64,000 nucleotides of DNA from positions 186,001 through 250,000 of the forward strand of contig NZ_JACCCO010000001.1 in assembly GCF_013409935.1 (NCBI RefSeq). Direction: 5' to 3'. Both the position numbers and the translations under genes were made by a program. The notes below the pieces were generated by a model that ran no database searches, was not told where the DNA came from, and saw only the letters and a program-made list of their open reading frames with translations. This DNA comes from Streptosporangium sandarakinum. Lineage in GTDB: Bacteria; Actinomycetota; Actinomycetes; Streptosporangiales; Streptosporangiaceae. This document shows positions 53,667 to 61,206 of the stretch, one piece after another (within the stretch, counting starts at the first letter, position 1; each line of letters begins with the position of its first letter).

Positions 53667-55799
53667 ATGGAGGCATCCGTCGAGCAGCTGGTGTACGTCC
53701 GCGAGGACGAGTACACCGTCGCCCGGATGAGCGCCGACGACGGCCCGGGTTTCGTCGCCTCGGGCCGCGCCCTGGCCGGGGCGCAGCCCGGGGAGACGCT
53801 CCGGCTCGCCGGGCGGTGGGACGAGCACCCCCGGCACGGCAGGCGCTTCGTGGTCGACGGCTGCGAGCGGATCGTGCCGTCCACCGTCCGGGCCATCCGC
53901 CTCTACCTCGGCTCGGGCCTGATCCGCGGCATCGGTCCGAGGCTGGCCCACGCCATCGTCGACCACTTCGGCGAGGAGACGCTGAAGATCATCGACGCCG
54001 AGCCCGAGCGGCTCCGCGAGGTCATCAACATCGGCCCGACCCGGCAGGGCCAGATCACCGAGGCGTGGCGCGAGCAGAAGGCGATCGCCGCGCTCATGGT
54101 CGTCCTGCAGGGCTTCGGGATCAGCCCGCTGCTGGCCGCCAAGGTCTACCAGGCGTTCGGCTCCGACTCCGCCGCCATCCTGTCCGCCGACCCCTACCAG
54201 CTCATCGGCCAGGTCAGGGGCGTCGCGTTCGCCACCGCGGACAAGATCGCCCTGCAGTCGGGGGTGCCGGAGTGCAGCCCGCAGCGGGTCAGGGCGGCGA
54301 TCCTCGACCGGCTGGAGGCGGCCGCGGCCGGCGGCGGGCACTGCTACCTGTCGCTGACCGCCCTGGTCACCCAGACGATGGAGCTGGTCGGCCAGGACGA
54401 GGAGGTCATCCGGCGGATGGTCGACGCCCTGGTGGCCGACCGCCGGGTGGTGGTCGAGGCGGCCCTCGACGGCACCGGCCGGACCGTCGCCTACCTCGCC
54501 TACCTCCACGACCGCGAGCTGCGGCTGACCACCCACCTGACGCGGCTCTGGCAGGCGCCCTCGGAGCTCCCCCTGCGCGCCTTCCACGAGGACCCCGCGC
54601 TGCACGAGGACCAGCGGATCGCGGTGAACATGGCGCTGACCAGCACCGTGTCGATCATCACCGGCGGCCCCGGCTGCGGCAAGAGCCACACCGTCAGGAC
54701 CATCGCCCGGGTGGTGCGGGCCGCGGGCGGCTCGGTGACCCTCACCGCGCCGACCGGCAAGGCCGCCAAGCGGCTGTCGGAGCTGGTCGGCATGCCCGCG
54801 ATGACCGTGCACCGGATGCTGGCCCACCGGCCCGACGAGGAGGAGGGCACGCTGTTCCAGGAGACGCCCGCGCGGGCCGACCTGATCGTGGTCGACGAGG
54901 CGTCCATGCTGGACCTGCACCTGGCCACCCGCCTGACCGCGGCCATCCCTTCGGGCAGCCACCTGCTGCTGGTCGGCGACAGCGACCAGCTCCCCAGCAT
55001 CGGCCCCGGCAGCGTGCTGGCCGACCTGCTGCGCGTCGAGGAGATCCCCCGGGTCCGGCTGACGCACGTCTTCCGCCAGGCCGAGGGCAGCGGGATCATC
55101 GAGGCCGCCCACCGGATCCGGGCCGGCGAGGTCCCGGCGGTCCCCGGCGGCGGGGGCTTCTGGTTCGAGGAGCTCGACGACCCCGAGCGGGTCGCCGAGC
55201 GGGTGGTCCACCTGGCGACGGTGGCGATCCCCCGCAAGCAGAAGGTGGACCCGGGCGAGGTGCAGGTGCTGTGCCCGATGCGCAGGGGTCCCACCGGCAC
55301 CGTCGAGCTGGGCCGGATGATCCAGGAGCGGCTCAACCCCGCCCGCGACGGCGCGGCCGAGCACTGGGCGGGCTCCACGGTCTTCCGCGTCGGCGACCGC
55401 GTCATGCCGATCCGCAACAACTACGACAAGGGCGTCTTCAACGGCGAGACCGGCACGGTCACCACGGTCGTCCCGGAGAGCCGGGTCGTCGAGATCCGCA
55501 CCGACGACGGCCAGGTCGTCGAGTACGGCTTCGACGAGCTCGACGAGCTGACCCACGCCTACGCCGTCAGCGTGCACCGCTCGCAGGGCAGCGAGTACCC
55601 GTTCGTGGTGGCGCCGATCGTCGCCGAGGCCGGCGGCGTCATGCTGCGCCGCCGGCTGCTCTACACCCTGGTCACCCGGGCGAAGGCGTGGGTGGTCCTG
55701 GTCGGCCGGCGCGAGGCCCTGGAGACGGCGGTCCACCGGCTCGGCGGGCGCCGCAACACCGGCCTCGCCCGCCGCCTCGCCCTGACGCTCCAGGGCTGA
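53667..55799 (+). CDS. recD2: RecD2-type ATP-dependent DNA helicase
   Basis: A 710-residue superfamily 1B helicase, 5'-to-3', of the RecD2 type that acts without RecBC. The N-terminal OB-like and helix-hairpin-helix region (IRGIGPRLAHAIVDHFGEET, INIGPTRQGQI) precedes the motor: Walker A GGPGCGKSHT, motif Ia TLTAPTGKAAKRL, motif II VVDEASMLD, motif III LVGDSDQLPSIGPG, motif IV LTHVFRQAEGS and motif VI YAVSVHRSQGSEYP plus TLVTRAK. It is involved in DNA repair and replication-fork restart in other bacteria. The ATG follows tgatgtccc with no strong RBS. Confidence 0.94.
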   Translation: MEASVEQLVYVREDEYTVARMSADDGPGFVASGRALAGAQPGETLRLAGRWDEHPRHGRRFVVDGCERIVPSTVRAIRLYLGSGLIRGIGPRLAHAIVDHFGEETLKIIDAEPERLREVINIGPTRQGQITEAWREQKAIAALMVVLQGFGISPLLAAKVYQAFGSDSAAILSADPYQLIGQVRGVAFATADKIALQSGVPECSPQRVRAAILDRLEAAAAGGGHCYLSLTALVTQTMELVGQDEEVIRRMVDALVADRRVVVEAALDGTGRTVAYLAYLHDRELRLTTHLTRLWQAPSELPLRAFHEDPALHEDQRIAVNMALTSTVSIITGGPGCGKSHTVRTIARVVRAAGGSVTLTAPTGKAAKRLSELVGMPAMTVHRMLAHRPDEEEGTLFQETPARADLIVVDEASMLDLHLATRLTAAIPSGSHLLLVGDSDQLPSIGPGSVLADLLRVEEIPRVRLTHVFRQAEGSGIIEAAHRIRAGEVPAVPGGGGFWFEELDDPERVAERVVHLATVAIPRKQKVDPGEVQVLCPMRRGPTGTVELGRMIQERLNPARDGAAEHWAGSTVFRVGDRVMPIRNNYDKGVFNGETGTVTTVVPESRVVEIRTDDGQVVEYGFDELDELTHAYAVSVHRSQGSEYPFVVAPIVAEAGGVMLRRRLLYTLVTRAKAWVVLVGRREALETAVHRLGGRRNTGLARRLALTLQG

Positions 55800-55827
55800 A
55801 CACCCCGGCGCGTCCCGCACTGGTTCC

Positions 55828-55925
55828 GGGCCGCACGGATTCCGGCTCGCACGGGTTCAGGGCCGCACGGATTCCAGGCCGCGCGAGGCCCGGGTCGCAC
55901 GAGGGCCCGGGTCGCACGAGGGCCC
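55828..55925 (+). repeat. Short tandem repeats downstream of recD2
   Basis: Two partial copies of a roughly 32-bp unit starting gggccgcacggattcc (55828 and 55860), then two perfect 17-bp units gggtcgcacgagggccc (55892-55908 and 55909-55925). No coding potential. The 55800-56044 stretch has no other feature. Confidence 0.7.
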
Positions 55926-56044
55926 GGAGCGGCCCGTGCCCGCCGTACGGCATCGCCGGTTTTCCGGTGCCGTGCTCACCTCGTCCCGAAGGCCGGAACG
56001 AGTTGGCCCGGACGGGGGCGACCGGGTTAACCTTGATCCGGAAA

Positions 56045-56135
56045 GGCCGAGAGGCGCTGCAACGGGCCCAAGACCCGCCACGCTCGGTCCCCTACCTGTT
56101 CGACAAGGGCGCCTCCGACAACGGAGGTGAGCCGA
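56045..56135 (+). ncRNA. SAH riboswitch upstream of metH with RBS-sequestering hairpin
   Basis: The sequence ccgagaggcgctgcaacggg, a short loop, then cccgccacgctcgg (56047-56088) has the P1 stem, GAGGCGCTGCAAC core and closing CTCGG of the S-adenosylhomocysteine riboswitch, a class known to sit before SAH-recycling genes. Downstream, cctccg (56112-56117) and cggagg (56122-56127) form a hairpin that hides the metH RBS GGAGG (56123-56127). The upstream side of that hairpin, gcgcctc (56109-56115), is also a perfect complement of gaggcgc in the aptamer core (56051-56057), so two folds compete. Confidence 0.8.
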
Positions 56136-60005
<3,870 letters not shown>

Positions 60006-60051: not shown

Positions 60052-60159
60052 GCCGCCGTCCTCCCCCGGAATCCCGGGGCGGACGGCGGGAACCGTGCTC
60101 CCCGGTTGATCGTTCCAGCGGGTGGTTCACCATTCAGGACGTCACAGGGAGAGGAAGCC

Positions 60160-61206
60160 GTGATCTTCAAACGCATGTTGGGGGCCCTGGGGGTCGGGGG
60201 TCCGTCGGTGGACACGGTCCTGGCCACACCGCGCGTACGGCCGGGCGGGCCGCTGCGCGGCGAGGTGCGGATCAAGGGCGGTGACTTCGACACCGACATC
60301 CAGTACGTCGCCCTGGGGCTGGTCACCCGGGTGGAGTCGGAGTACGGCGAGGGCGAGCACGTCGGGCTGATGGAGTTCCTGCGCGCCGAGGTCTCCGGGT
60401 CGTTCCGGCTGCGCGCCGGCGAGGACCGCGTCATCCCCTTCGAGCTTCCCGTCCCGTGGGAGGCGCCGGTCACCGAGATCCACGGTCAGCGCCTGCACGG
60501 CATGGCGATGGGCGTGCGCACCGAGCTGGCGGTCGCCGGCGCGGTGGACAAGGGCGACATGGACCCGGTCGAGATCGAGCCGCTGCCCTCCCAGGAGGCG
60601 ATCCTGCGCGCCTTCGCCCAGCTCGGCTTCCAGTTCAAGAGCGCCGACCTGGAGCAGGGCCACATCTACGGCGCCGACCAGCGGCTACCGTTCTACCAGG
60701 AGATCGAGTTCTACCCGCCGCCCGCCTACTCGGGCCTGGTCAACGAGGTGGAGCTCACCTTCGTCTCCGGCCCCGGCGGCATGGACGTCGTCCTGGAGGC
60801 CGACCGGCGCGGCGGCTTCCACGGCTCGGGCGGCGACTCCTTCGGCCGCTGGCGCGTCGGCCACGACGAGGCCCTGCACCGCGACTGGGCCGCCGACATC
60901 AACGGCTGGCTGGCCGCCCTGTCCCAGCACGGTCACGGCGGTGCCCACGGACACGCCGCCGGGCACGGGTACGACGGGCACCACGACCCGTACGCCCACG
61001 GCGGGCACCACGACCCCTACGCGCACGGCGGGCACCACGGCCACCAGGGTCATCACGGCGGGCCCGGCTTCGGGGCCGTCGCCGCCGCGGGCGCGGCCGG
61101 GCTGGTCGGCGGTTTCGTGGCGGCCGAGATCGTCGACGAGATCGGCGACGCCTTCGAGGGCGACGACGACAGCGACTTCGGCGGCGGCGACTGGGGCGAC
61201 GACTGA
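60160..61206 (+). CDS. Spo0M-like arrestin-fold protein with His-rich tail
   Basis: A 348-residue protein. Residues 1-240 are the SpoOM/arrestin-like beta-sandwich: FKRMLGALGVGGPSVDTVL, PLRGEVRIKGGDFDTDIQYVALGL, FELPVPWEAPVTEIHGQ and EIEFYPPPAYSGLVNEVELTF (in parts). Spo0M controls sporulation onset in Bacillus and has similar homologues in Streptomyces. Residues about 255-305 are very His/Gly rich and contain two copies of HHDPYAHGG; an Ala/Gly helix and an acidic tail (EGDDDSDFGGGDWGDD) follow. The GTG at 60160 follows ggagagga; the upstream ATG at 60106 is unlikely. Confidence 0.9.
   Translation: MIFKRMLGALGVGGPSVDTVLATPRVRPGGPLRGEVRIKGGDFDTDIQYVALGLVTRVESEYGEGEHVGLMEFLRAEVSGSFRLRAGEDRVIPFELPVPWEAPVTEIHGQRLHGMAMGVRTELAVAGAVDKGDMDPVEIEPLPSQEAILRAFAQLGFQFKSADLEQGHIYGADQRLPFYQEIEFYPPPAYSGLVNEVELTFVSGPGGMDVVLEADRRGGFHGSGGDSFGRWRVGHDEALHRDWAADINGWLAALSQHGHGGAHGHAAGHGYDGHHDPYAHGGHHDPYAHGGHHGHQGHHGGPGFGAVAAAGAAGLVGGFVAAEIVDEIGDAFEGDDDSDFGGGDWGDD

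Follow-up and report, generated by a model that had tools for sequence, protein, structure and literature searches.

A probable SAH-class riboswitch, predicted to activate translation, in the metH leader of Streptosporangium sandarakinum

The metH leader of Streptosporangium sandarakinum contains one strand with two possible partners, which raises the question of whether the leader is a riboswitch and, if so, in which direction it switches. GAGGCGC (56051-56057) can pair without a mismatch with GCGCCTC (56109-56115), and CCTCCG (56112-56117), ACAA and CGGAGG (56122-56127) form a hairpin that buries the Shine-Dalgarno (SD) sequence GGAGG, 8 nt upstream of the metH ATG. An earlier sequence-only reading of the window (the whole 64,000-nt stretch analysed here) had named these strings, their complementarity and the masking hairpin, all of which proved to be where it had placed them, and had proposed a SAH riboswitch that acts on translation through mutually exclusive pairings around one strand. 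It had also deduced that the ligand would free the masking strand and repress metH, leaving a third fold or the folding order to be resolved.

The metH locus

The gene lies downstream of recD2, which ends at 55799, and its product scores above the cut-offs of both NCBIfam models (PRK09490.1, 1854.6 bits; TIGR02082, 1547.5 bits), being 97% identical to S. pseudovulgare MetH by protein comparison. No MetE match was found in the Streptosporangium genome (95.6% complete), so that MetH is apparently the sole methionine synthase of this organism. The genome does carry a SAH hydrolase gene, which is adjoined by a partial second AdoHcyase-like match pair within one open frame of 851 residues (G000:C1:2255592-2258509). 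Two short GC-rich tandem arrays, with units of 16/32 nt (CCGCACGGATTCCGGG) and 17 nt (GGCCCGGGTCGCACGAG), occupy positions 55815-55927 between recD2 and the metH promoter, and a Spo0M-family gene follows just 3' of metH (60106-61206).

The elements of the leader are listed in Table 1. G56051 offers a possible seventh pseudoknot pair, the last P2 pair in the window (C56067 with A56073) is non-standard, and the GC of the TGCAA junction corresponds to G15 and C16 of the solved SAH riboswitch.

Table 1. Features of the metH leader and gene (window coordinates)
Feature	Position	Strand	Evidence or remark
-10 box TAACCT	56028..56033	+	TANNNT position conserved in leaders
P1 5' strand GGCCGAG	56045..56051	+	Pairs with 56083-56089; five P1 pairs changed on both sides (alignment A1)
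Pseudoknot 5' strand AGGCGC	56052..56057	+	Pair counts in 158 leaders: G-C to A-U, C-G to U-A
TGCAA junction	56058..56062	+	UGC invariant in alignment A1
P2 5' strand CGGGC	56063..56067	+	Pairs with 56073-56077; alignment A1
P2 3' strand	56073..56077	+	Alignment A1
A then C of CCAC junction	56080..56081	+	A is the A29 equivalent, C the G30 equivalent
P1 3' strand CTCGGTC	56083..56089	+	Alignment A1
G, C46 equivalent	56107	+	Swapped jointly with 56081
Pseudoknot 3' strand GCGCCT	56109..56114	+	Overlaps anti-SD strand; pair counts
Anti-SD strand CGCCTCCG, masking hairpin 5' arm	56110..56117	+	Minimum-energy fold, 8 pairs
Masking hairpin 3' arm, with SD GGAGG 56123-56127	56122..56129	+	Fold and pair counts
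metH, cobalamin-dependent methionine synthase, 1289 aa	56136..60005	+	NCBIfam PRK09490.1 and TIGR02082 matches

Evidence for membership of the SAH class

Judged by covariance-model score, as the sequence-only reading had suggested, the assignment fares unevenly. The Rfam model of the SAH riboswitch, RF01057, gives the leader (56040-56135) 33.4 bits (E 1.9e-4 on 601 nt), below the gathering score of 37 bits, and the whole-window Rfam scan at gathering level returned no match. Close relatives do pass, homologous leaders of the same clade scoring 37-45 bits with 44.9 as the best, so that the low score is a fault of the single copy and not of the clade. At E<=1e-3 RF01057 matches 12 of the 16 Streptosporangium genomes and 98 of the 343 in the family; of these 98, 56 lie above the cut-off and 42 below, the Rfam cut-off thus overlooking the window copy and others of its clade. 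The RF01057 score alone is nonetheless borderline, since a 31-bit match in another locus (L122) was rejected as chance, sitting as it does inside a coding frame. A clade covariance model, R1, built from alignment A1 (67 diverse actinomycete leaders), gives the window leader 72.7 bits (E 1.2e-10) as the single match in the whole genome, a score that shows how well the leader fits its clade and is not an independent detection, because the window is among the training sequences. Phylum-wide scans used strict filters and scored few candidates; their tallies are lower bounds and were not used as evidence of absence.

Several features of the class are present in the window. P1 and P2 enclose the conserved junctions GCGCUGCAA and CCA..GCUCGG with one consensus base altered (CCAG to CCAC), the P1/P2 junction strand is complementary to the 3' GCGC strand and covaries with it, and the gene downstream, metH, belongs to the SAH/SAM cycle.

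The association with metH was assessed at 80 loci chosen by MetH protein similarity alone, with no selection for the RNA, which span Streptosporangium, Amycolatopsis, Micromonospora, Frankia, Kribbella, Actinomadura, Lentzea and others. One locus without upstream DNA (L081) was left out, and the element stands upstream of metH in 78 of the remaining 79, called mostly by pattern, in L034 by eye and in L016 and L085-L087 by model. The remaining one, from Asanoa (L080), lacks the element and has a different leader, in which (L080:1370-1495) the -10 box and a short leader are kept, the aptamer core is lost and another hairpin is found. The metH leader of Sphaerisporangium album (L016:1352-1427) carries a weak (40 bits), degraded-looking copy with CTGAG/CTTGG in P1 and CCGAAC for CCACGC, and may be a switch in decay or one that has been altered. 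Counted from the element, metH follows it at 164 of the 171 loci that bear it; single exceptions include an adenosine deaminase (L123), a SAM-type methyltransferase (L121), two MOSC proteins (L148, L164) and a phosphotransferase-family protein (L161), the first two being consistent with SAH turnover. A third group, probably Mycobacterium, with MetH about 53-55% identical over the N-terminal stretch tested, has the element too, at loci that were selected by the element.

The element was not found at the locus of the best MetH in eight genomes (four Streptosporangium, three from another family of the class and one from the g27 group). As this best MetH is just 36-40% identical in the element-free Streptosporangium genomes, as in the other four, the switch accompanies one metH type within the genus. 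Two MetH types, 36-40% identical, alternate within Streptosporangium (the element-free genomes being those of L205 and L207-L209), which suggests that metH has been replaced together with its leader. By homology, the switch precedes metH in many actinomycetes.

Covariation was examined in all helices. Pairing in A1 holds in 94.9% of cells, against 90.3% in shuffles and 21-42% in slid structures, and nine pairs show two-sided changes, which none of 500 shuffles equalled; these shuffle statistics ignore relatedness, so that pair support is strong but not phylogeny-corrected. Compensatory changes occur in P1, P2 (three of five pairs), the pseudoknot and the RBS hairpin. No claim is made for the outer P1 pairs (A1 columns 4-5), which are frequently unpaired.

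The pseudoknot occurs as AGGCGC/GCGCCT (136), AGGCGT/ACGCCT (8; MetH about 54% identical, probably Mycobacterium) and AAGCGC/GCGCTT (4; Lentzea). Across the set of 158 distinct leaders, G-C occupies pair 2 except in the four from Lentzea, which have A-U, and pair 6 is C-G, U-A (8), U-G (2) or a C/U mismatch (6); the other pairs are nearly invariant in the clade, partly fixed by the collecting pattern, and neither support nor oppose the pairing. Compared with the Rfam consensus GAGCGC/GCGCUC, pairs 1 and 2 go from G-C and A-U to A-U and G-C, compensated on both sides.

The masking hairpin, for which covariation in relatives had been proposed as a check, covaries as well. In 133 leaders with CCTCC..GGAGG, the sixth pair, next inward, keeps standard pairing in 130 of 132 (mean of shuffles 78.9, maximum 94) and takes six forms (CG, GC, GU, UA, UG, AU). 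The hairpin reads CCTTCCG..CGGAAGG in the probable mycobacterial group and GCTTCCGA..TCGGGAGC in Lentzea, so that one strand stays complementary to two partners even where its sequence has changed. Homology, gene linkage and covariation taken together, the leader is very probably a member of the SAH riboswitch class, as had been proposed.

Ligand pocket, level and direction of control

The numbering of the pocket bases (G15, C16, A29, C46) rests on a construct sequence whose letters agree with the four bases named in PMC7057144. The equivalents of G30 and C46 are C/G in 156 of 158 leaders, with U/G in one and C/C in another, whereas the Rfam consensus has G/C, as does L118, an actinobacterial leader upstream of a gene reading as ahcY. 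In the SAH riboswitch, G15, C16 and A29 hold the adenine and C46 is reported to lie close to the amino-acid (homocysteine) tail of the ligand (PMC7057144). An ON switch of the same fold could therefore have shifted its specificity to another compound of the methionine cycle, a reading favoured by the near clade-wide occurrence of the swap and by the position of the swapped base near the tail (PMC7057144). The adenine-holding equivalents are kept, however, the swap preserves pairing, and the genes that follow the element (metH, and in single cases adenosine deaminase and the SAM-type methyltransferase) are those of SAH turnover, all of which makes a ligand other than SAH very unlikely. The swap looks like a paired replacement that probably leaves the ligand unchanged. 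As a clade-wide trait it may be a new feature. That the leaders form a distinct subtype, in which the change from G-C to C-G on the tail side alters the reading of the tail and possibly ligand preference, and the pseudoknot 3' strand is retuned as a perfect anti-SD sequence, is a tentative idea that we consider rather unlikely. In either case, C46 to G with G30 to C is a defined pocket variant for structure-function study.

In 153 of 156 distinct leaders a -10 box of the form TANNNT begins 14-22 nt upstream of the CGAG core; in shuffled sequences any one position collected at most 4. No fixed or consensus -35 box was found in the leaders, and a sigma-70 consensus scan gave no promoter in the window. 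Transcription is predicted to start near 56040, giving a leader of about 96 nt with the switch at the very 5' end of the message. The strong hairpin might suggest control of transcription, or control through Rho or RNA decay, instead of translation, yet no intrinsic terminator was found in 55800-56300, which favours translation as the controlled step, and in nearly all relatives the SD itself forms the 3' arm of the hairpin; such control is highly improbable.

The direction of the switch depends on what the GAGGCGC:GCGCCTC helix is. If the ligand disrupted it, as the sequence-only reading had it, the masking strand would be freed and metH repressed; in favour of this view, the two pairings do exclude each other, and the RBS hairpin, the 8-pair minimum-energy fold of the window leader, is stable. 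The helix, however, aligns and covaries with the pseudoknot of the class itself, and the SAH aptamer folds around SAH into this pseudoknot, which its ligand-bound form includes (PMC7057144). With the helix identified as the aptamer's own pseudoknot, the paradox of polarity disappears and no third fold is needed.

Folding energies point the same way. The 156 leaders were folded with P1 and P2 enforced, and the pseudoknot was represented by strand blocking, with no pseudoknot energy model; when the strands were blocked without enforcing P1 and P2, the window misfolded and the effect was understated, and these helices were therefore enforced. The mean cost of opening the SD falls from 11.9 kcal/mol without the pseudoknot to 4.1 with it (13.8 and 5.4 in the window), and the drop is at least 2 kcal/mol in 146 of the 156 leaders. 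When random segments were blocked in place of the pseudoknot strands, SD opening was unchanged. Since pseudoknot formation is thus computed to expose the SD, an OFF switch is barely credible.

A ligand-free alternative (a simple RBS-masking hairpin or a fold due to chance), which the sub-cut-off RF01057 score and the unremarkable folding energy of the segment (z -1.26) would allow, can practically be dismissed, given an aptamer core conserved across many families, the R1 match, the covariation and the linkage to metH at loci selected by protein.

The metH message thus very probably begins with an SAH-class riboswitch that turns translation ON, a reading based on RF01057 homology, covariation of both helices and the overlap between them, the energy shift, the place of the promoter and the linkage to metH; that SAH is the ligand, and that the switch acts in cells, we infer. 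Without SAH, 56110-56117 would pair with 56122-56129 and the SD would be hidden. Bound SAH would stabilise the aptamer (P1, P2 and the pseudoknot of 56052-56057 with 56109-56114), which would remove the masking strand (56110-56115) and allow ribosomes to load and MetH to be made. Because the pseudoknot, which ligand should stabilise, captures the SD-masking strand, SAH should activate MetH synthesis, and on this model the ligand-bound state should be ON, as is known for the class. Such SAH riboswitches upregulate ahcY (PMC7057144).

An ON output would suit the signal, as SAH accumulates during active methylation and MetH removes the homocysteine released by SAH hydrolase while regenerating methionine. 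The methylation-heavy metabolism of antibiotic-producing actinomycetes makes SAH removal important. The leader would thus place a probable SAH sensor on the sole methionine synthase found in S. sandarakinum and, by homology, on metH of many such actinomycetes, and it provides an example of one strand kept complementary to two partners at once.

Comparison with known systems

The RF01057 SAH riboswitch is known chiefly as an element upstream of ahcY in beta- and gamma-Proteobacteria. The actinomycete leaders share with it P1, P2, the TGCAA and CCA junctions, the 3' GCGCxx pseudoknot strand, a spacer of variable length, the position upstream of SAH-cycle genes and the ON logic. They differ in the core (GAGAGGCGC against GAGGAGCGC), in having CCAC for CCAG and AAG for AAC before the 3' strand, in a 3' strand that runs on as CGCCTCC to form a perfect anti-SD sequence, and in preceding metH where RF01057 typically precedes ahcY.

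This is a known class with an ordinary translational ON design, and it has been met before both in the phylum and upstream of metH: SAH riboswitches have been noted in Mycobacteriaceae (PMC3766115), and metH is a target in the proteobacterial Comamonadaceae (PMC4239095). No description of the actinomycete metH leader was found in the literature searched, the scope of which lay outside the original key SAH papers. The probable mycobacterial leaders (L185-L192) have the actinomycete core before metH, like the window, but differ from it in a U-A instead of a C-G end pair of the pseudoknot, a CCTTCC/GGAAGG SD hairpin, a longer P2 and a shorter spacer.

The SAM/SAH riboswitch (RF01727) and SAM-II, neither of which matched in the Rfam scans of the window, are likewise pseudoknot aptamers acting on the RBS. 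Unlike the switch proposed here, however, they bury the RBS upon ligand binding and are thus OFF rather than ON (PMC10907184), and they are of unrelated sequence and are associated with other genes.
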